NCBI GenBank assembly: GCA_029204225.1
Contig: CM055107.1
Location: 30,715,410 to 30,779,409, forward strand
DNA from: Diphasiastrum complanatum
Taxonomy: Eukaryota > Streptophyta > Lycopodiopsida > Lycopodiales > Lycopodiaceae
DNA length: 64,000 nucleotides
Reading direction: 5' to 3'
Both the position numbers and the translations under genes were made by a program. Positions within the stretch are counted from its first letter, which is position 1, and the number at the start of each line of letters is the position of its first letter. Shown here piece after piece: positions 41,796-58,439 of this stretch. The notes under the pieces are model-generated. The model was not told the DNA's origin, did not search any database, and saw only the letters and a program-made list of their open reading frames with translations.

Positions 41796-42030
41796 TTTTG
41801 AAATGGAAAAATAATCCATCTTGACTTTAGGCTTGCTACAAACATTGTACCATGCAAGTATGTTGTTCCATAAATGCAAATGCCAAGTTTGGCCTAGATA
41901 GAACTCGAGCTACATGGATATGTCATATCTAGTTTGATGTTACAACTTGCATATAGATTGTAGACTTAGAATTAGCAAAATTATGCTTGTAACATATATA
42001 TTCATTTATATAATATTTTGGCAAATAAAA
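41784..42030 (+). repeat. Polypurine tract and partial 3' LTR of copia C6
   Basis: The tract ttaggaggag (41786-41795) is followed by a TG at about 41798 and about 230 bp of noncoding sequence. That sequence shares the word 'gaactcgagcta' with the C5 LTR (36176). The right end is not defined and merges with the next region. Confidence 0.55.
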
Positions 42031-42623
42031 AAAAAACATTTAGAATGTAAACTAGCAATATCTTCCTCAGTATTGGCATTAGAGCCAATGAAAACATCCC
42101 TCAACATATCAATATCTACATTCAAATATTCAGTCTCTTTATCAGGAGTATCAATCAAGAAATGACTGATATCCTTAATGGAATGTCCAGTAGTGGAGGA
42201 TAAAGGGATCTTAGTATCATGAATCAAAGTATCTGACTCTACTGGGATTTGTACCAAAAGGAAAAACACAAATCCAGTCTGCGACATTTTCGATTACAAA
42301 CATTACATTCACTAGAATTCTTAAATTGATCAAAAAGTCTAGTGTACATCCTGTCTAGCCGCTGCTTATAATGAGAAAAAATATGTACAAGATCAGTGAA
42401 ATGCATAAACGACAAATTAGATGCAGAGATTGGAGGGATACTGACTATATCCCTGAATTTGATATACTGGTCATAAAAAAATCAGGACTCTATTGTACCG
42501 TACTGAACACATTTAGAAAAGGCTGAAAGAGGGACTTGAAGTACTCTATGCACTCAGTTATACCGAACTCAGAGAGAAAATTAGACAACAAACGCTCACG
42601 ACTAGGATCAGAGGAGAAAGCCA
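42006..42623 (-). pseudogene. Unknown protein with a CxxC-type Cys cluster
   Basis: ATG 42623 opens MAFSSDPSRERLLSNFLSEF, GITECIEYFKSLFQPFLNVF and reaches a TAG after STVQ. A shift in a T-run leads to a second frame (42475-42239): YDQYIKFRDIVSIPPISASN, LVHIFSHYKQRLDRMYTRLF, DQFKNSSECNVCNRKCRRLD. A third frame to 42006 follows (DTLIHDTKIPLSSTTGHSIK, then an acidic part). The CNVCNRKCRRLDLC cluster could bind zinc. I do not recognise the family. A TATA box lies 240 bp upstream, and the divergent neighbour is the CENH3-like gene. The three frames join with one stop and two shifts, so it is a young-looking relic of a gene of about 200 residues. Confidence 0.5.
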
Positions 42624-42863
42624 TTGAGTAGTATTGGATTTGTGCGAGAGGGGAGTAACCGAAGATGAAGGGAGAACATTACGCACGCACAGAAGTGATA
42701 TGTACAAACGACGTATCGCTCTTTTGAAACATGATACAATAAGAGAACAAACAAGGCGCACACAAAAGCAATATGTGACGAAAATAGATATAAAATATGC
42801 GCGTAGAGAATCAATATGAGCAAAATCCGAGAAAGTAAAAAAAATAGGTTTTCAAAGATCGTG

Positions 42864-42873
42864 CCCTTTATAG
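42864..42873 (-). promoter_or_regulatory. TATA box of the minus-strand Cys-cluster gene
   Basis: On the minus strand CTATAAAGGG stands 240 bp before ATG 42623, right beside the first G-box palindrome (42880). Position and sequence suit a plant core promoter. Confidence 0.5.
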
Positions 42874-42879
42874 TCATCT

Positions 42880-43245
42880 CACACGTGCGAGTCAATGGTC
42901 AACTGCCCACGTGTCATACGATGATTTGCTGAAAATCATCCACACGTGTGCAGTCGTACAGAATGCATGTGTCACATTCTGATTCGTTGTCGCTTGACAC
43001 GTGTCATAGGATGATTCGATCAAAATATTTCACACGTGTGAACTGGTACAAGAGGCATGTGTCACATTTTGATTTGTTGCCGCTTGACACGTGTTGTAAG
43101 ATGATTCTAAAAAATATTCCACACGTGTGAAGCTATGTGTTGCATTCTGATTGGATGGAGTGTGACACTTGTCGATGGCTGATTTGTTACTAGACACGTG
43201 CGGACGGCACGTGTGACCACACATGTGTGACTACACATGTGCAAA
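42880..43245. repeat. Tandem 89-90-bp repeats carrying alternating G-box palindromes
   Basis: Units begin at 42880 (truncated), 42941, 43031 and 43120 with CACACGTG(TG). Each full unit also has a second palindrome of the TGACACGTGTCA type (exact at 42995-43006) and a 'gcatgtgtcacattctgatt' block. CACGTG is the plant G-box bound by bZIP and bHLH factors. The array lies between two divergent genes and so may be a shared enhancer, or a transposon subterminal array. Confidence 0.8.
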
Positions 43246-43481
43246 AAAACCGTTTACACATGTTCACGAGCTTGGAGGTAGTTTCACTTGTTTTTTTCTA
43301 AATTTTTGTACCATATCGCTTCTCTGCGAATGCTCTTTTCTCTTTTATCTCCGTCTCCTTCTATGTGCGAACAAGAGCGATATTACCGTCGTACATATCG
43401 CTTATGTGCGTGGTTAGCTTTTTGTCTCGTTGTTTTTGTTTTTCACACTCGCACAAGAGCGATACGTCCTAGACTGCTCTC

Positions 43482-43859
43482 ATGTCTAGGGTCAAACAGA
43501 AACAGAGGGATTTCTTCTCTCCTGGGGCTATATCCACAAGTACCCCTGCTGTTAATTCTCCACGGAAGACCGGGCGTAACAGGAGGAGATGGCTCTCTAA
43601 GATTAAGAAATATCAGAGATCCACCTTGCTCTTGATACCCACAGCTCTCTTCTACAGAACTATTTGTCTGATTACCCGAGATAATCTGTAGAGTGCTATC
43701 AGGTTCACACCTAGAGCATTGTAGTGTTTGCAAGAGTCCGTAGAGGACTATTTGGCTCTTTTTTTTTAGGATTCTATTTTGCTTTCCATCCATGCCAAGT
43801 GAGTGACCATAATGCCTAAAGATTTTCAAATCCTATATAGAATGAGAGAGAGATTTTGT
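43482..43859 (+). pseudogene. CENH3-like (centromeric histone H3) domain, broken
   Basis: CENH3 replaces H3 in centromeric nucleosomes. ATG 43482 opens a basic tail (MSRVKQKQRDFFSPGAISTS, SPRKTGRNRRRW). The histone fold follows: KIKKYQRSTLLLIPTALFYR aligns with alpha-N and alpha-1 of H3, where LLIP is CENH3-like (H3 has LLIRKLPF). Loop 1 is one residue longer than in H3, and IRFTPRAL fits the R(W/F)TPEAL of plant CENH3. LQESVEDYL then aligns with LQEAAEDYL, and after a shift in a T9 run IHAK, stop, VTIMPKDFQILYRMRERF matches the H3 C-terminus. Lesions are TAG in loop 1 and alpha-2, the T-run shift and TGA before VTIMPKD. There are no introns within the fold. The frame continues downstream into another protein instead of stopping after alpha-C. 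Confidence 0.75.
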
Positions 43860-45252
43860 AGACTTCACAAGGGTGAACCCGATGTTCCCTGGAACAAACC
43901 CCTTGATAGGACCAACCTACTCTCCAAGAAGCCTCGCAAGCAACCTGCCCCCAGAAGGAGCAAGCCATCCTCTTCTAAGGCTCCCAAAAAGGTCCGACGT
44001 GTAACCCTCCAAGCTTCCACATCTGGAGGTGATGGAATTGTAAATATTGTAGCTCTTGATACTGTGGTTGATTCAACCACAAAAATTTTGGACATTCCCT
44101 CCATTGTAGATACTCTCCTGCCTCCTCCTGTTAATGTCAAACCTGTAGCATATTTAGATTCTGATAATTATTTAAAATTTAAGAAAGATATTTCAGATGC
44201 GATAGATAGTATCGGCATGCCAATCCTCTTCCAAATAGAAGAGATTGGTCTTACTCTTAATTTTAAAATTCCATATTGTTTGCAGATGAAGGATAGAAGG
44301 GCATTTATTAGCGATCCAGTGATTGAGGCTGGTCTCCCCTGACTGCACTATGATATAGCAAGGGATTCCATGAAAGAAGTGTCGCTTCTTAGCAATTTTT
44401 TCCTGCAAGGCATCAAGGACAACAACGACACTTTGTCACACTGTATCCTTAGTGCTTGCTCACCTACTGTGAAGTTTTTGTTGATGCCATATCATACCAA
44501 GTATGTCTATCTCTTTACTTGTCAAATTCATTACTTGTCTACTTCTTTACTCGTAATTATTGTATCGTTTATCTAATGAAATTCTTCATGATTTTTTGCA
44601 GTGATAACTGGAGCTTAATTGTAATTTCTGTAAAAATCACAGATAATAATATTGTAAATCTTTTTTGTGTAAAGATGAATTTTGCCAGCAACACACATAA
44701 GGATATTGACTCACTGTTGTCGGAGATATGTAAATATTTTTCAATAGAGAATCCCACGGCAGGGAAATGTGAAATTGTGATTATTGATCATTGAGGTAAT
44801 CATTAAACATTTCTGGTGTATTTTTGTTTATCATCATTGTTAAGCATTAGTACCTTCATCCCATTATTAATCAATTGAATGTATTGCAGAAACTCCAACA
44901 AAATGACTCATATAGTTGTGCGTGGTATACTCTATACAATGCAAAGTTATTTTTCCAGTGGTACAATCTTCAGGAGGATGTTGATATTTCAAAAGTGAGT
45001 TATTAGCCCTTTCTATTTTATCTTTATGTTAACTATTGTTTGTTATTAATATTCATCTAATACAATGTTTATTGCAGTTTGTCCTAGGTGATTATATTGT
45101 TGGCAAAGTGTACATAAGTGTACATATTTCGACAGGAGATCATTCTTAGTCTATTGGCCAGGTCAACTGCTGGACCAAAGATTGATGTTGGGCCATCTAA
45201 GGCAGACGATGTTCAGATTTTAAATGAGACTGGGCAAATTGTAAATACTTAA
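43860..45252 (+). pseudogene. Linker plus Ulp1-like (C48) cysteine-protease domain
   Basis: This continues the CENH3-like alpha-C frame. A basic linker (KKPRKQPAPRRSKPSSSKAP, KKVRRVTL, NLS-like) leads to VAYLDSDNYLKFKKDISDAI and a TGA at 44340. The same frame goes on to 44500. Introns 44501-44601, 44796-44889 and 44995-45077 all have GT-AG ends. Spliced, MPYHTNDNWSLIVISVKI and LQQNDSYSCAWYTLYNAK recall Ulp1/SENP (P.H...HW.L.V and Q.DS..CG). The Gln and Cys are kept, but the His of HW is Asn and the Asp is not evident. The last exon ends near 45252 after one shift (DDVQILNETGQIVNT). Ulp1-like domains are common in plant DNA transposons. Confidence 0.6.
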
Positions 45253-45495
45253 GCTGAATAGATAGACTTATAAACATATAGAAATAGAATTATAGAGATA
45301 TAGACATACAGAAACAAAATCATTTGAACAAATGTACAAATTCCCCAAATTCGGATGATCTTTTATTGAATACATATACCAATTTGTACAATTGATTGTA
45401 CTTTTTCGTATCTGCATGAAAGATAAGCAACTTGTTAATTTCTCTATTCTCTAATAAAGGTACATATATGATCATTGACTGATTTACAAATCAGA

Positions 45496-46706
45496 TTAAA
45501 ATCTTACGAGCTTTCCATTGATAATGAATGTGAAATATTCTGGTAGAATTTCATTGTCCATTAAGACCAACTCTTGTCTAATATAACTCAAGCTCCAATG
45601 ATCCTCCACTATAATTGTAGTTAGCATATCTTCATTGTTGAAAATGTGGACTTTTTTTCGATCTGTGTGATCATCCATTTAAAGGTCTTGATTGAGTGGC
45701 ATCCATGTCTCACTTATTCGTTTCCATCTCTGGTAACTAAATGTAAGACTAAGCATTTGTCTTGCAATGCAATAACGAAATATCATAGATGATTTCTTAA
45801 TTCTACATTCAATATCTCCAACCGCCTTGCATTCCCAACCCACATCCATCAGATCTGAAAGAGTGTCATCTGGCACATCCTTACGAACAAATAATGTTGG
45901 TGTTCTATGAACATTTGCATTTGAAAAAAAATAATCTACAAATACAAATAAGGATAGAAACCAACTTAATCTATTGACTTTTGATCCAGTGCTAGCTTTG
46001 ATTGAGTTTTTCAAATATAATAGTAATTTGCATCTAAAAGATTCTGACACCATACTATCAGGTGCAAGCCATTCATCACTTCCAAAATGTGGCAGTGGTA
46101 TATCTTCAAGCTTTCCAAAACCTCCATGCATATCTGGAATATACTTGGACTCATAGAAAAATATACCACTATCTACAAGCTCCTTAGAAGTTTTTCCTCT
46201 GTATTGTAATTTTCCAATATTCGAATGAACTTCACATCCAATATACCTGCTAGGGATTGTGTTGGCTCCCATTCGCTTATCCTGGATGGATATAAATCTA
46301 CAAGAATGCAATACATATATGATAACTGATATGATTTCAACAAGTTTCAAAAGCATGAATGTTATAATATAGATCCCAATTTTTTTTAAACTTATAGTTA
46401 CATTTTTGGCGATCATGAATATCAAAATCTTGTAGATATAGCTCCGAATGCATATAGACATGTTGAACCAAGACTTCTGAGATTGATTGCCCTCCTGGAG
46501 AAGTCCTAAAATCAAGGATCTTTGCTTTCTAATATGATTTGAATGTCATCTTTGCTTTCTTTTTTGGTCTAAACATGCCTTTTGAGAATGGATGCAGCAG
46601 AACCCATGAGTTTTTGATATATCTTGTTGGTTTCCAAAATCCGGCATCATCCTTCTCATTGTGAAGAATCATTGATTCAATTTTAGATCTTGGTCTCCTG
46701 GCCATA
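45496..46706 (-). pseudogene. Unknown gene with possible ubiquitin-like C-terminus
   Basis: On the minus strand ATG 46706 opens a basic start (MARRPRSKIESMILHNEKDD, AGFWKPTRYIKNSWVLLHPF, KGMFRPKKKAKM). A stop and a shift follow, then an intron-like gap ending at TTGTAG near 46297. The main frame to 45679 has GANTIPSRYIGCEVHSNIGK, DSGIFFYESKYIPDMHGGFG, PHFGSDEWLAPDSMVSESFR and PTLFVRKDVPDDTLSDLMDV. Just after a stop, ATG 45678 to 45496 reads VHIFNNEDMLTTIIVEDHWS, LSYIRQELVLMDNEILPEYF and TFIINGKLV. This resembles the ubiquitin-like L..IR.E....P..F.F...G..V pattern found in some transposon proteins. The gene converges on the CENH3-Ulp1 gene, with about 240 bp between them. The family is not recognised. 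Confidence 0.45.
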
Positions 46707-46720
46707 CCGATTGCTTCCAA

Positions 46721-47227
46721 AGTTTAGCGCCAAATTCTCAAATATATGAAATGCCAAATCGACTCAATGCTATATGATACTTATTCAATGTGAATGGATA
46801 ACTGGACCACAGTAACAACATGTGGTAACTATGCTTATTGTCTAACTGTGATGCATGTCACCAGTTCCTATGCATGTGATGACTTACTATTGGCAAACCT
46901 ATGTAGTTTGAAATTTATGAACATATTAACCAATGTGGTTAAATAATTAACTAGAGACAATGTCGTTGTGGGCAGATTCACACATTCGGGACAGACACTA
47001 TCCACCAATAGCATATTCCCATCCTGCCCGGCGGCAAACTCAAAAATTTTAAAAGTTAATTTTTATAACTTTATTATTTCTATCTACGTTACGTAGATTT
47101 CAAATATATGCAATTTCATTGGGCTACATGGCGGACAAAACTAAGAAAAAAAAATTAAAAGCATATTTAGGAAGGGTCTTTTTTTATTTTAAAAATCCTC
47201 TTATGGCTACACACAACATGACTACGA
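46721..47227. other. Stretch without a recognisable gene
   Basis: AT-rich upstream flank of the minus-strand gene, with the self-complementary word ACGTTACGT near 47090. No TATA box is convincing. No repeat shared with other parts of the window was seen. Confidence 0.5.
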
Positions 47228-51103: not shown

Positions 51104-52690
51104 AGCAGGTTTGGTTCTTGATAAGAGATGAATACTCTTTATCCATAGCTTCTTGCCAGAGATCTGAATCTGGATGACTGAGTGCCTCTTTGACAATCGT
51201 TGGCTCGTGAACAAGGTAGGCTGCAGACTCGTCGATATATCTGATAGGTGGTCTGCTAGCTCTTGATGATCTTTTGGAAAATAGAGGAAGTTGATCATTT
51301 TCATCATATTGTAGTTGTTGAATTGCAACACCATCATCTTCTGATTCATCGTTAATTTATTGTTCATCAAAAGTAGATGAGCTTGGTCCTTCAATGGGAA
51401 TAGTCGACTGAGGAACTGGAAAGTTCAATATGTCAAGGAAATCTGACAGGTCGGCTGGATGGGCAATACCTTTTTCCTTGAGGTCTTGAAATTGATCTTA
51501 GATGAAGATGACATCCTGACTAGTGAATATCTTCAACTCAATGGGATTGAACAACTTGTAGGCTTGATCTAAAATAGTGTAGTTGATGAAAATACATTTG
51601 ATACGTTAGAAGTCGATTTTCTTCTTGAGATCGTGAGGAATTTGCACATAAGCAGTACATCCAAAAACTCGTAAGTTTGATAGAGAAGGTTTGATACCTG
51701 TTCAAACTTCGAATGGTGTTTTGTATGAGAGATCTTTACTAGGACATATGTTCTGAACATAAGTTGTCGTTGAAATAGCTTTAGCCCAGAAGGACTTCGG
51801 TAGTGTCGCATGTAATAACATACACTTTGTCGATTCGACGAAGGTTCTGTTCTTTCTCTCAGCAAGACCATTTGACTGAGGTAAATAGGAGGTAATGTAT
51901 TGTTGCTCAATGCCATTGTTAAGACAGTACTCCTTGAATTCGATGTAGATATATTCTCCCCTGTTATCTAACCTCAATGCTTTGATTTGTTTGCCAGTTT
52001 GATTTTTTGCATGCTCTTTGAATTGTCTAAACTCGATGAAAGCCTCTTATTTTAGTCTAATGAAATAAATAGCCATTTTTCTGAAGAATTCATCAATAAA
52101 GGTAATGAAATACTTTGCATCTAACAATGAAGGAGTTTGCATAGGTCCACATATATCTATATGAACAACATCTAACAAACCTTCTGTTGCATGCCTATGA
52201 CTTGGTCTAAAAGGAATCCTAGTCTGCTTTCCAAGGATGCAGCTATGGTAGATAGGCAGATCGACTTTACCAAAAGGATAGTCGAGATCAAGAGCCATGG
52301 ATTGGCTGACATGTTCAAAACAGATGCATAAGTCAAGTGTCCTAAGCGATGATGCCATAGTAATGCCTTATTGACAAGAATAGAGATTTTCAAGGCTTGA
52401 CTAGAATCAGAATAACAATTATGTTGAGTAGCTCCAGAATCCAAAAATCACGAATCATCCAAATTCGCGTATTTGTCTTTGACCATAAAAGTGCCTTTGT
52501 CCATTTCGACTTGAGGAGATACTGTAACTATATTTGCTTGTTGATCATGTTGCTTGGCTGTATTCTTCGCTTTGAGAATTCAACAATCCTGGATCTAATG
52601 GTTATTGCATTTGCAATACTTGCAAAACATCTTCTTCTTTGACGAATGTGGATTTGATGATTGTTCTTGACTTTGAGTCTGTCTGTGATT
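51104..52690 (-). pseudogene. Copia C7 protease, integrase and RT start, minus strand
   Basis: Read from 52690 down, zinc-knuckle debris comes first (CKYCKCNNH...DC). Protease DSGATQHN (52444) is joined by deletion to LVNKALLWHHRLGHLTYASV. Integrase follows: HIDICGPMQTPSLLDAKYFI, LDNRGEYIYIEFKEYCLNNG, YLPQSNGLAERKNRTFVEST and TTTYVQNICPSKDLSYKTPF. The linker RASRPPIRYIDESAAYLVHE and RT start PDSDLWQEAMDKEYSSLIKN end it. RT is cut after NQTC at 51104, where the (CT)n tract starts. Several shifts are present. Confidence 0.88.
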
Positions 52691-52864
52691 CGACGTAGAC
52701 TGCTTGGAGCTTTTCTGCTTCTGTCATTTCAAGCCCTTGTTGACATAGAGAGCATGAGATCAAGAGGTAGACAAAGTGTCTTGACTTCTTCGATTATCTT
52801 CTTGCAGCAACATAGTGATAACTCTGATAAGAGTTAAATCTGAGTGTGTTATGATGATCGTCAC

Positions 52865-53350
52865 CTAGTTCTCATATGTAAAGGGCAGACTTAAAAGCAA
52901 TGTCATAATTGCGTCTTGATCGTCTATGACTGATCCGACAATGGCCATCTGTTGCAAGAGATTCTTAAACTGGTTAATATGTTTCTGAAGACAATCACCA
53001 TTTGACATCTTGAGTGTGACGAATTTTCTTCGAAGATCTAACTTGGTAGTTACGTCTCTCACATCATATAGTGAGCTCAGGATGTCCCAAACTTTTTTCG
53101 AAGTCTTAGGCTCAGCTATATGGCCAATTTGAGTATATGATATATTGAGGATAATAAGCGCGAAAGCTTTACCATCATTCGATTTCCATTCCGAGGTTTC
53201 TGTGTCGTTTTCAGGTTTCACTTTGATACCTGTAACAACATCCCACAACTCGTTGGCGATTAGCAAGGCCTTCATCTTAAATTTTCACAAATGATAATTG
53301 GATCCATTCAGCTTGTTTGTGATAGAACCGACTTTACTTTGAGAATCCAT
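52865..53350 (-). pseudogene. Copia C7 Gag (UBN2 type), minus strand
   Basis: The start is ATG 53350 (MDSQSKVGSITNKLNGSNYH). Codon 22, the conserved Trp, is TGA at 53285-53287. The frame then runs unbroken to 52865: KMKALLIANELWDVVTGIKV, FALIILNISYTQIGHIAEPK, WDILSSLYDVRDVTTKLDLR and HINQFKNLLQQMAIVGSVID. The sister copy at 55267 carries the same stop. The region 52700-52865 continues Gag with lesions. Confidence 0.88.
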
Positions 53351-53545
53351 TTGGAACTTAGTTTGTCGATTGTATCGATGACGCTAAGATGTAGTGATGC
53401 CAACAATAGAAAATCAATTCTCTGATACTGAAAGGATGAAAGGAACTGAAAAATATGATATCAATTTGTTATCGCGAAAGATATCAAGTATTAGAGCTTT
53501 TCGCTCTGATATCGAAATAGTATTAGGCGTTGAAGAAGAATCAAT

Positions 53546-53557
53546 GCTCTGAAACCA
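53546..53557 (-). other. PBS of copia C7, minus strand
   Basis: TGGTTTCAGAGC on the minus strand, one base off the tRNA-Met type, abuts the LTR TG at 53558-53559. Confidence 0.8.
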
Positions 53558-54710
53558 TGTCAAAAATAGGTGAGTAATAGAATGTGGAAACTTCCTACTT
53601 CCAATGCATGACTACTCCTATAACAAAATGAATAAAGTAGTAGTGATGGAAATTACGTCCAATCTTTAGCAACTAACTTTTGCTAGATACTAAGTGACTA
53701 CATAGACAAACATAAAGTATTAAATTCTCAGACAATTTTTATCAGTTACAAAAGCAATACAAAGATGCATGCATTCTGACACAAACTGAATGCAATAAGG
53801 AAATAGTATTGATTTAGAAAAACAAGATCAGATGCTAATGAGTGCAAGACAATAGCGGATAGAAACCGTGCACTCTAAAGCTATCTCTGAGTAACTAAGA
53901 ATAAGTCTGAAATAAGGAACTTTGCTGATAAGCAGTAGCGCAATAGCAACTCTAAAATACATCTCTATAAAACTGATCTAGAATGCTCAAGAGAGTTCAA
54001 GCTTGAAAGCTTGATAGAGAGCTAACAACAATACTTTCTGATTGTGAATGATCTGCTTGATGAGAGTGTAGGAAGCGTCGTGTAATAACACTCAACTCCT
54101 TCACAATCCACAATGTTGATGGATCATTCTACTGATAATGAGATGTATGAACAACTGATTTATACTAAGTAATTAGGTCGTCAAATGCGATTGCCAGTTG
54201 GCTGGTGTCCATTGACATTCATCCAGTTCTTCTCAAAAGTTGTTTGTTGATAAGCGGTGACAATTGGCCGTAAACAGTCATAAATGAATGTAAACTGTCA
54301 TTTTGCATAAATGAATGTAAATTGTCACAGGCGAAAAATGTGACACTGTATTTTTACTCGTAATTTTTGACAGGCAAAAAATGCAAAAAAGACGACATTG
54401 CATTTTTGCACGTAATTCCTTATAGGCAAAAAATACAAAAAAGATGACACTGCATTTTTACACATAATTCCTGACAGGCGAAAAATGCGAAAAAGCCGAC
54501 ACTGTCTTTTTACATGAGATTCCTGACAGGAGACACTGTCGGGTTTGTAGAGAGAGAAAATATGACACTATTGTCAAACTCCGTGTATTTTTGCAGATTG
54601 TGTAAAAACACTTGTAATTCTGTAGATTGTATAAAGACATGAGAAAATTCGCAGAACTGGATAAACAGTTGGATGAAGATTAAAACCCGATTAGTCGATT
54701 AGTAGGACAG
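53558..54710 (-). repeat. 5' LTR of minus-strand copia C7
   Basis: The inner end (53558) is fixed by the PBS. The outer end is estimated. It contains the 52-bp repeats at 54329-54540. The stretch near 53590-53650 resembles the reverse complement of 54940-55000 in the plus-strand copy ('gtagtcatgcat' words). No coding sequence. Confidence 0.6.
54329..54540. repeat. 52-bp tandem repeats within an LTR
   Basis: Units start at 54329 (43 bp, shortened), 54372, 54424 and 54476, each beginning AGGC(A/G)AAAAATG and ending near CTGAC. A partial fifth begins at 54528. Such arrays are common in U3 of plant LTRs. Confidence 0.85.
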
Positions 54711-55266
54711 AGAATAATCCAACACTATTTTGCTTTCATACTGAATCAATACTATCTTCTTATCCCATTCAGCTTCATCTCAGAATGTATGCATTTTTAT
54801 AATTTTTTGCGACTGATTATTTGTCTGATAATTCAATGCTTTAATGTTTGGCTACGTAATCGTTGTAGTACTAATGATTTCATAGTTAGTTACTATAAGA
54901 TTGAACGTGATTTCAATCACTATTGTTTTGTTCAAAATTGATAGGCGTAGTCATGCATGAAGAAAGAGAAAGATAGTTTATTCTATTATGCATGATAAGT
55001 TTTCTTTCTTGTCGTTTGAGTTATTTTTATTCAAATCTTATTTGACCTATCTTTTATACACCGCTTTCCAACATCGTATTTAAGTATTGATTCTTCTTCA
55101 AGGCCTGATACTATATCAGAGCGCAAGCTCTTATACTTGATATCTTTCGTGATATCAAATTATTCTTCAGTTCGAATCAATTTATTTCGGTATCAGAGAA
55201 TTGAATTCCACAGCATTGTATCTTTCTCTTAAAGACGATTGAATTATCAATAGTCTAAAGTTCCAG
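54711..55266 (+). other. LTR end and leader of plus-strand copia C7
   Basis: This mirrors the leader of the minus-strand copy: 'tgattcttcttcaa.gcctgatacta', 'atatcagagcg', 'cttgatatctttcg.gat' and 'gtatcagagaattga' occur in both. A PBS-like ATATCAGAGC is at about 55113. The LTR boundary could not be placed. Confidence 0.5.
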
Positions 55267-56505
55267 ATGGATTCTCAAACTAAAGCCAGTCTTATCGTAG
55301 ACAATCTGAATGGATCCAATTATCATTTATGAAAATTTAAGATGAAGACCTTGCTAATCTCCAATGAGTTGTGGGATGTTGTTACACGTATCGAAGTGAA
55401 ACCTGAAGATGATACAGAAGACTCAAAATGAAAATCAAAGGATGGTAAAGCTTTCGCGATTATTATCCTCAATATCAGATACTCAAGCTAAGTTTTTGGA
55501 AGAAGTCTGGGACATCCTGAACTCACTATGTGATGTGAGTGACGTAACTAATAAGTTACATCTTTGAAGGAAATTATTCAGACTCAAGATTTCAAATAAT
55601 GATTCTCTTCAGAATCATATTAACCAGTTTAAGAATCTCTTGAAACAGATGGCCGTTGTTGGATCAGTCATACATGATCAAGACACAATTATGACATTGC
55701 TTTCAAGCCTATCCTCTACATATAAGAACTGAGTGATGATCATCATAACACACTCAAATTTATCTCTTACTAGAGTTATCACTATGTTGCTACAAGAAGA
55801 TAATCGAAGAAGTCAAGTCACTTCGTCTACCTCTTTATCTCATGCTCTATATGTCAACAAGGGCTCAAAACGACAGAAGCAGAAAAGCTCCAAGCAGTCT
55901 ACATCAAATCAGAAACAGACTCAAAATCAAGAACAATCATCAAATCCACGTTCGTCGAAGAAGAAGCTTTTTTGCAGGTATTGCAACCACAATAACCATG
56001 AGATCTAGGATTGCCGAATTCTCAAAGCGAAGAATGCAGCCAAGAAAACTGACCAACAAGCAAATACAGTTACAGCATCCCCTGAAGTCAAAATGGATGA
56101 CGGTGCTTTTATGGTCAACGACAAATATTCGAATTCGATGATTCATGGTTTCTAGATTCTGGAGCTATTCAACATATGACCAATCATTGGGAGATTTTCC
56201 AATCCTATACGCCTTACAGCACAAAGAAGTATGTTCATCTTGGTGATGATAGTACTCACACTATCGAAGGTGAAGGTATTGTAAGATTAAGATTCCAGCA
56301 TGGTCAATTCAAACTATTGTCAAAAGTCTTGTATGTTTCTAAACTCTCTATAAATGTGTTATCAATAAGTAGAATTATAGATTTAGGTCATAAGGTGGAG
56401 TTTGAGTCTGATCAATGTAGAATTATCAATAGGAGTAATAAGATCCTTGCACTCGACAAGAGACATGGATACTTATATAGATTGGCACGTTGTGTTTGAT
56501 GGTGG
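55267..56505 (+). pseudogene. Copia C7 Gag and protease, plus strand
   Basis: ATG 55267 (MDSQTKASLIVDNLNGSNYH) has TGA at codon 22 like its minus-strand sister, then KMKTLLISNELWDVVT. Gag decays through several stops. 55733-56008 is Ser/Gln/Lys-rich and precedes a zinc-knuckle remnant (CRYCNHNNHEI). The protease WFLDSGAIQHMTNHWEIFQS is at 56146-56205. It continues HLGDDSTHTIEGEGIVRLRF, LSKVLYVSKLSINVLSISRI and NKILALDKRHGYLYRLA. It is cut at about 56505 by the next element. Confidence 0.88.
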
Positions 56506-58260
56506 ACATTCAAATTTTTTTAGATAAGACTATAATTCAAGGTGCTTGTGATTTTGTAAGTATTAGCATGGAAGCATATGCAACAATATTTAAACTAATT
56601 AGAGAAGCTTTTCAGCAAGTTCAAATTAGAAAAGTCCCAATCCCTAGGACACATCACTTGAAAAAAGAGAGAGATACATTAAACATAGGTTTGCATAAGA
56701 TCACTGGAACTCCATTTCATATTGAGGAGGTGTATGAAACTGATGGAAGATCGATATCCTATTATTCATCAAACAACTTATTTGTTGATCTAAATTACTT
56801 GCTGAGATACATCCTCACATTCTATGATATAACCTTTTAAAAGGTGAATGACAAAATAGTCATAGTACTTAAGTTAGATGAGTCAGAAATTGTGAAAGGG
56901 CTAAAGATGGAGAGAGTTAGTATAACTCTCATGAATGGTGCACTATCACAAACAGAGGACCAAGAAGATTTCAGATTCAGTGTCCAGTCAAAAAATGATA
57001 TATGGTGGTTGGCAGCGTTTCAAGTAACTAGCTTCATTATTACATCACATTAATTGAATAGTATTTATTCTTTGTCAACTAAGTTTGATTAATTCTTTGG
57101 ATAGGTGCTGAAGGAGGATCATGATATATTATCATGGATATTCTCAAGGACATCTTATCCTAGGATCATCAAGGACCATATGGATGGAGGACTTCTCAAT
57201 ATTCCAGGAGTTGGAGACTTCAATGTTGAATGGCACTTAGCAGGCGATTTGAAAACATTGAAATGTATGTATAATGTCTCTCAAGGTGCTACATCAAAAC
57301 ACCCTTGTTTGTACTGCATGAAAATGGAAAAAGATGTTACTAGGAGTACAGGAATTACTAGAGAATATGCGGATCCAAACTGGTAGCCTGTGCTACCTAT
57401 CCCCTTGAAAAATGTGCATGTTTGCACTCTTCATGCAGAAGTTAGATTAATAGAAAAGATCATTTATCTTCATATAGTTTCTGCTTGGAATACTAAGCTA
57501 GCATCATCAACAAAAGAAGCTATCTCTCGATTAGAAGATGTTTTATCAAAAGCAGGACTTCATAAGAGACATGTCAAAATTCAAAAAGATGAAAAGCTTT
57601 CAGATTAGAATGGGAATATGCCAACTAAGCCAAGCATAGGAGGAGCAAAAGCGTCTCTATCAAATCATACTGGTAAGGCTTCTAATATTCAACACTCAAT
57701 CTCTGGACACATATTATTGCTACCACTCAGGATTTCGAGAAAGACGGCAAAACTAGAATACTAAAGTTGATGTATGGAAGAAGATTGATAGTATGATTGC
57801 TATTTAAAAAAAAAGATAAATACTATGATATTGATAAGAAAGCCATACAAAGGACTTGTGTTGAGTTTGTTAATGTAGTATCAAAATCATGGGGAGAAAA
57901 TCACATCACTCATTACATGGTTAGTATAAATTCTTTAAGTTGCTTTCAATTTTTCATATATATTTAGATCCAAACATAAGATTGACATTATGGTTTTGAC
58001 ATCTGCAACACATACTAAGAGATCATACAACATTTTTTGCAAACACGTATGGAAGCTTGAGTGTCTGGTCATCAAAGGGGATGGAGAAGTCACATTGGCA
58101 AGCACGAGCAGCATTTCATCAAAATACACAACATGGAGGAACCAATGAAAAATAAAACTACATTTGTCAATGTTTCAGTGGTTCTACCGCAGAGTTCAGA
58201 TTCGACATATAACAAAGTCCACACAATACAACAAGTTTAGAAAAGCATGCAAGTTCATAC
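56506..58260 (+). pseudogene. Unclassified DNA-transposon-like protein with CxxC motif
   Basis: Exon-like blocks read KKERDTLNIGLHKITGTPFH (56660), KIVIVLKLDESEIVKGLKME (56853) and DIWWLAAFQ. A GT-AG intron (about 57030-57104) follows. Then come SWIFSRTSYPRIIKDHMDGG, EWHLAGDLKTLKCMYNVSQG, TSKHPCLYCMKMEKDVTR and VHVCTLHAEVRLIEKIIYLH. Further blocks are KVDVWKKIDSMIAI, TCVEFVNVVSKSWGENHITH, GSLSVWSSKGMEKSHWQARA and FQWFYRRVQIRH (58170-58200). The D.K.L...C.YC, CTLHA..R..E and GMEKSH..AR blocks recall transposon-like proteins of many eukaryotes that I cannot place in a named superfamily. Stops are few, so it is not ancient. The 5' end is fused to copia C7 at about 56505. No TIRs were found. Confidence 0.5.
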
Positions 58261-58329
58261 AGGGAGATAAAATTAGATGATTTATGAGTAGAAGATAAAA
58301 AGACATTCAATCATCATGGTCATCAAATC

Positions 58330-58439
58330 ATGACATGTTCAGAATTGCTTGCAAATTCATTGAACAAGAGAGGAAAAATACTCAATGTAAATGTGTGACA
58401 TGTTCAGAATTGCATGCAAATTCATGGAACTTGCTTCCC
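58330..58439 (+). repeat. Short direct duplication
   Basis: The word 'gacatgttcagaattgc(t/a)tgcaaattcat' occurs twice, near 58333 and 58407, between the transposon relic and the next fragment. Confidence 0.7.

Follow-up and report, generated by a model that had tools for sequence, protein, structure and literature searches.

Histone genes are known as cargo of fungal hAT transposons, which resemble the element described here in combining a TIR DNA transposon with an H3-like gene (PMC3538342, PMC6710886). In Pyrenophora tritici-repentis, which has 26 H3L genes, H3L is a full match for neither H3 nor CenH3 (PMC3538342). Such cargo also occurs in Pseudocercospora fijiensis and its relatives, and in P. 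fijiensis the H3-like genes lie in elements of ~9.5 kb with hundreds of RIP-damaged copies (PMC6710886). The fungal elements differ from ours in using a hAT transposase, and in the available portions of both reports a protease fusion goes unmentioned (PMC3538342, PMC6710886).

Proteases of the C48 (Ulp1-like) type, in turn, are known as extra genes of plant DNA transposons, in the Kaonashi/KIU elements (VANDAL MULEs) and in CACTA-ULP, and our element is like them in both respects (PMC13317346, PMC2528002). VANC-type KIU genes carry Ulp1, and KIU elements have been tied to anti-silencing (PMC13317346). These systems differ in their MULE or CACTA transposases, the KI-MULEs being without TIRs, and the word 'histone' is absent from the main text of the two reports (PMC13317346, PMC2528002). 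Ginger1 is likewise a TIR element that encodes a C48 (or OTU) domain; its protease, however, is joined to a Gypsy-like integrase, its listed hosts are animals and the available part of the report does not mention a histone (PMC2836005). A search of the open-licence literature found neither a histone-Ulp1 fusion transposon nor a plant case of a histone-carrying transposon.

The locus considered here lies in a stretch of 64,000 nucleotides from the lycopod Diphasiastrum complanatum, hereafter the window. An initial annotation had proposed that a CENH3-like histone domain runs in frame into a Ulp1-like protease domain, and the two-domain frame is borne out: the window holds a dead member of a large family. 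A basic tail and an H3-type fold occupy positions 43482–43862 with the motifs LLIP, RFTPxAL and VTIMPKDFQ all in place, and loop 1 of this fold exceeds that of H3 by one residue, as had been claimed. From the fold proper (43590–43862) the frame continues unchanged through a basic, NLS-like linker (43863–44140) and enters a C48-like domain, the N-terminal part of which (44141–44500) has its counterpart in a copy on contig C14, within the stretch aligned with SENP2; all of these features are on the forward strand. The window fold matches PF00125 at 3e-8 if X is written at the first two stops, while its open relative L066 reaches 2e-26. The 69 residues ahead of the first stop give only 0.002, under the cut-off, and among PDB chains they match CENP-A and H3 weakly (best E 0.018).

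Exon borders in the window copy were set by alignment to other copies. Exon 1 (43482–44500, forward) comprises the histone part, the linker and the first part of the protease and is followed by exon 2 (44602–44795), with an HWSL-type motif that reads NW here, exon 3 (44890–44994), with QQNDSYSC and the putative catalytic Cys, and exon 4 (45078–45252), which encodes the C-terminus, all on the same strand. The splice sites of exon 2 are common to the L064, L065, C14 and C23 copies, and for exon 3 the C14 copy provides a PF02902 match. The three downstream introns of the initial annotation are thereby confirmed, with all six GT/AG intron ends found in the window copy, as are the NDNWSLI and QQNDSYSC motifs. 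The same layout, with histone, linker and protease part in exon 1 and three introns thereafter, recurs in the window, L064, L065, C14 and C23 copies over the extent that each one covers. The copy is indeed dead, but not quite in the way first described: a reading of 43482–45252 in all frames gives five in-frame stops (43689, 43722, 43767, 43800 and 44340) within the single frame that extends from the ATG at 43482 to 44500, and the supposed T-run frameshift does not exist. Exon 2 is out of frame owing to a length difference relative to other copies, and the protease His position is Asn in the window copy where the aligned B copies have His.

Relatives of this gene are abundant in the genome. 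The linker query has at least 152 matches (4549 candidates), the 69-residue histone query at least 150 scored matches (3399 candidates) and a 340-residue query from the L066 exon at least 119 scored places (9813 candidates); here and below, candidates are unscored first-look counts and scored places are lower bounds. With 119–152 scored relatives for each of three genome queries, the window frame is far beyond chance. Histone fold, linker and N-terminal protease part are joined in 119 of 119 scored places, the earliest match ending at residue 304 and the latest starting at residue 35. A joining of the two parts at the window locus only was considered and is rejected on this count, and on the same order of parts in a distant clade, C. 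Exon 1 is free of stops in 25 of these copies and contains stops in the other 94, as counted by hand from the list of the 119 places. The in-frame stops in these exons are skewed towards TAG (147 of 187), an excess of the kind expected if methylated cytosines in CAG codons are lost, and thus suggestive of such decay.

Open copies were found in subfamily B, which has ~64% DNA identity to the window. Exon 1 of its member L066 matches PF00125 at the value given above and H3 chains in the PDB. The search for intact two-domain copies proposed at the outset led to the C14 copy (L068 and L069), which when spliced is open throughout and encodes 479 aa. This protein matches the profiles of both families, Pfam Histone at 8.3e-22 and Peptidase_C48 at 3e-9, each over its curated cut-off; against PF02902 it scores 37.5 bits (cut-off 20.7). 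In the PDB its protease part matches a Ulp1-like SUMO protease (1.8e-4), SENP2 (3e-4) and Ulp1 (8.1e-4). A PF02902 profile search of the whole genome returned three places only, none known to lie within these elements; such a search reads exon by exon and therefore misses a C48 domain that is split by introns.

The element around the histone-Ulp1 gene is a plant DNA transposon present in high copy number; it measures ~9 kb, and its terminal motifs are inverted. The earlier claim of an H3-type fold and a Ulp1-like domain encoded in frame by a mobile element thus holds. The surviving part of the window copy extends over 41987–47205 in forward orientation. On the left it breaks off at 41987, the point at which L065 and L067 begin to align with the window and beyond which the sequence is Copia-like. 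On the right, the similarity of five separate places, the window among them, ends at 47205 or its equivalent, and the terminal motif at 47172–47205 (minus strand) reads inward 5'-CATWAGAGGANTT...GACCCTT. This 34-place motif has 7001 matches in the genome with at most one mismatch, 3500 forward and 3501 reverse, against 0 for the reversed control. Among 100 listed motif places on contig C1, neighbours less than 15 kb apart form four inward pairs, no outward pair and three same-way pairs, and most of the 100 are without a partner within 15 kb. The inward pairs span 8.1, 9.0, 9.45 and 11.3 kb; that of 9.0 kb (9016 bases) encloses a scored histone exon and that of 9.45 kb a match to gene 2, introduced below. 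Four of the 119 scored histone places are on C1, three of them inside the range of the listed motifs, and all three of these have an end motif in the expected orientation, 4.7–5.7 kb upstream or 3.3–3.8 kb downstream. We read the whole as a TIR DNA transposon. Elsewhere in the window, a long inverted repeat (52462–56135) with arms of 648, 218 and fewer bases, 75–92% complementary, seemingly consists of Copia-like pieces in opposed orientation.

Gene T, in forward orientation, comes first in the element; it is followed by gene 1 (reverse), by the histone-Ulp1 gene with its four exons (forward) and by gene 2 (reverse). Gene 2, the convergent neighbour (45496–46705, minus strand in the window), is very conserved, with at least 150 scored places at 90–100% identity and 11178 unscored candidates, and no Pfam family exceeded the cut-off in a search with it. 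The 150 scored copies of gene 2 are better conserved than the 119 of the histone gene, which are mostly at 80–89%; gene 2 may be a key protein of the element. In 12 of the 119 histone places a gene 2 match lies 2.41–2.52 kb from the histone start, on the opposite strand each time. A gene T match lies near 13 of the 119, forming 14 pairs of which 12 are on the same strand, and in eight of the same-strand pairs it is 3.95–4.12 kb upstream of the histone place. On contigs C1–C24, to which random placement was confined, nine gene 2 pairs were observed versus 0.26 at random, and 12 gene T pairs versus 0.24; an additional histone set, chosen by eye because it had neighbours, does not enter these counts. 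The divergent neighbour, gene 1, survives in the window as a fragment (41987–42678, minus strand) delimited by BLASTN to L064, L065 and L067; its L064 copy has a CxxC..C motif, and its L064 and L065 copies match no Pfam family over the cut-off.

Position and conservation suggest that gene T is transposase-like. It has at least 150 scored places and 6992 unscored candidates; 148 of the 150 match approximately the first 85 residues and two the whole 163-residue query. Pieces of gene T, which come from broken copies, match no Pfam family even with the E limit relaxed to 10, and a search of separate pieces with an E limit of 1 yielded a single match, below threshold; against the PDB, gene T matches PsbW only, at an E of about 1. 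None of the Pfam matches of the element pieces searched, these broken gene T pieces included, is to a hAT family. A gene T fragment of another copy lies in the window at 56492–58394 (forward), 89% identical to positions 706–2567 of L064, a stretch that lies upstream of a histone-Ulp1 gene. Its motifs KLDESEIVKG, GDLK, CLYC and HAEV may be DDE-like.

Between gene 1 and the histone gene lies a divergent promoter region with an unusual density of CACGTG. The spacer of 782 bases in the window contains nine such sites, clustered at 42882–43213 without strand assignment, versus 0.11 after shuffling, and the remaining 58.6 kb of the window contain 11. In all seven copies compared, the 0.77–0.78 kb upstream of the histone gene hold 5–11 sites versus 0.11–0.16 expected, and the array is found in subfamilies A and B. 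Within 42882–43213 the dense array of CACGTG and ACACGTGT consists in part of 90-bp tandem repeats. By analogy with VANC motif arrays, the cluster may serve as a self-recognition or promoter array; VANC proteins of VANDAL elements bind arrayed short motifs, according to the accessible part of the report (PMC5735166). CACGTG is, however, also an ordinary G-box of plants.

What would an element do with such a fusion? Selection was assessed by NG86 in six pairs formed by four subfamily B copies. dN/dS is 0.19–0.35 in the histone fold and 0.09–0.46 in the N-terminal half of the protease, and 0.34–0.84 in the less constrained linker. Linker values that involve L064 are raised by a stretch of its linker that looks frame-shifted; in the three B pairs that do not include this copy they are 0.34, 0.50 and 0.67. 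In comparison with a subfamily A copy, both domains have synonymous sites that are saturated or not computable, and dN is 0.23–0.26 in each. The low ratios show that both domains evolved under purifying selection and were thus of use to the element. Decaying copies dilute the signal, and the actual constraint is probably stronger than measured. Our preferred reading, to which we assign a probability of roughly 0.45, is that a domain acting on SUMO is delivered by the histone fold to the chromatin of the element, countering silencing or aiding re-integration. The histone fold would pair with H4 or dock on histone chaperones and thereby carry the protease domain to element chromatin, where that domain would remove SUMO from silencing or repair proteins or hold their SUMO conjugates; the outcome would be that silencing is countered or re-integration helped.

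The strongest competitor, though unlikely, is that the histone part works alone, with the element's own H3 variant protecting or marking its chromatin and the C48 domain reduced to a catalytically weak binding module. It draws on the catalytic Asp position, which in the aligned copies apparently reads Asn and which renders protease activity uncertain as judged from sequence, on the constraint on the histone fold, and on a clade, D, with at least 150 scored histone places, in which the copies read have the H3-like domain with no adjacent C48. Against it, the open C14 copy retains the His, the oxyanion Gln and the Cys, the N-terminal half of the protease is itself under constraint, and the fused order recurs in clades A, B and C.

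The kind of histone bears on where such a protein might act. PF00125 matches of 2e-26 (L066), 9e-20 (L065), 6.3e-30 (L072) and 3.9e-25 (L074) place the histone part, on profile evidence, in the histone H3 family. The comparison with plant CENH3 used sequences of Arabidopsis, rice and maize. Clades A and B are 46–53% identical to the canonical H3 of the host (L076) and 43–51% to plant CENH3, and clade D is 52–53% identical to host H3 and 45–51% to plant CENH3; clade C is 44% identical to H3 and 47, 50 and 41% to the CENH3 of Arabidopsis, rice and maize. The CENH3-like signatures LLIP, APF and FTxxAL are kept, with the longer loop 1 in clades A and B. A tree of 94 columns, from which the window row was left out on account of its stops, unites A, B and C in one group (90/88) and the three plant CENH3s in another (91/89) with no transposon row in it, and A, B, C and D together form one side of a branch with 70/78. 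The tree, a check that the initial annotation had suggested, is small and weakly resolved, with full support in only two of 11 inner branches, and the separation of the CENH3s in it is accordingly tentative. The view that the gene is a CENH3 retrocopy is not supported, as A, B and D resemble CENH3 no more closely than they do H3 and the CENH3s group apart. A recent CENH3 retrocopy was thus rejected on identities and tree, with clade C pointing the other way; an older CENH3 parent is possible, given that clade C is nearer to two of the three plant CENH3s.

Clades C and D extend the family. The histone query for clade C (L074) has at least 150 scored places and 6828 candidates. Its parts follow the fused order, with 46% over 140 residues for the histone part and 30% over 67 (E 1e-8) for the N-terminal part of the protease; the copy read has them in two frames. 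For clade D (L072, L073 and L075; loci on C156, C17 and C22) there are 6360 candidates beside its scored places. In the 1.3 kb read there is no C48 domain, and the frame stops directly after the fold; an N-terminal extension is possible, since reading began inside an open frame. Downstream of L072 and L075 lies a convergent frame of an unrecognised family. L077 is a decayed clade D histone copy. A typed CENH3-like query also returned L078 (C3:74791200–74791800; RFKPGTVALREIRKYQKS...), possibly an exon of a host CENH3 or H3 variant.

These affinities also weigh on the suggestion that the element is directed by its histone fold to CENH3 or to centromeric chromatin, or that this fold competes with the CENH3 of the host, which we consider improbable. 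LLIP/APF, RFTPxAL and the longer loop 1 of A and B are CENH3-like, clade C is nearer the rice (50%) and Arabidopsis (47%) proteins than H3 (44%), and the top PDB matches of the window fragment are, weakly, CENP-A. For open members of clades B and D, on the other hand, the best 60 PDB matches listed are H3 chains, with plant H3.1 the best for clade D, and the plant CENH3s group apart. Nor is the centromere targeting envisaged at first supported by the distribution of copies: the 80 of 119 on contigs of known extent are evenly spread along them (KS p = 0.23), a measure of position on the contig that leaves targeting unproven.

It is just as improbable that a captured host H3-type gene and a Ulp1 fragment are carried as passengers without use. 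Plant transposons commonly capture genes, according to the accessible part of one report (PMC13317346), and stops in exon 1 of 94 of the 119 scored copies would fit a useless cargo; a passenger would, however, hardly show dN/dS well under 1 in both domains with a looser linker between them, nor the same fused order in three clades. The least credible origin by far is a remnant of a virus-like or giant-virus insertion, for although viruses also carry histones and Ulp1-like proteases and several genes lie in one element, the three shared introns, the 7001 inverted end motifs and one scan of viral contigs with a 337-aa exon, which returned no relative, all speak against it, and no capsid or polymerase gene came to notice in the parts read.

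Chromatin delivery of a SUMO-acting domain is thus the reading we favour, and the fusion itself predicts the pathway, namely H3–H4 handling together with SUMO. Histones are normally the property of the host, and a transposon lineage that keeps a selected H3 variant with a deSUMOylase-like domain would offer a handle on the dialogue between transposons and chromatin. A bolder proposal, which we regard as doubtful in its entirety, is that these elements form a new superfamily of plant DNA transposons with an H3 variant of their own, fused to a SUMO protease in three clades and apparently unfused in the fourth; the variant would reside in element nucleosomes or on host chaperones, and the elements would edit their own SUMO marks to evade silencing. 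For genome annotators, it follows that some plant 'CENH3' or 'H3' gene models may stem from transposons.

Set against the systems described so far, the element departs from the fungal hAT-H3L transposons in its plant host, its C48 fusion, its other neighbour genes, its several clades and the purifying selection on its domains. With plant CENH3, the element histone has LLIP, APF, xFTxxAL and, in clades A and B, the extended loop 1 in common; it differs in being fused to C48, in its intronless histone part, in that clades A, B and D are not nearest to CENH3 and in not grouping with it in the tree. Each cargo is thus known by itself, Ulp1 from plant transposons and the H3-like gene from fungal hAT elements; for their fusion, in a plant, the open-licence literature searched has no counterpart.
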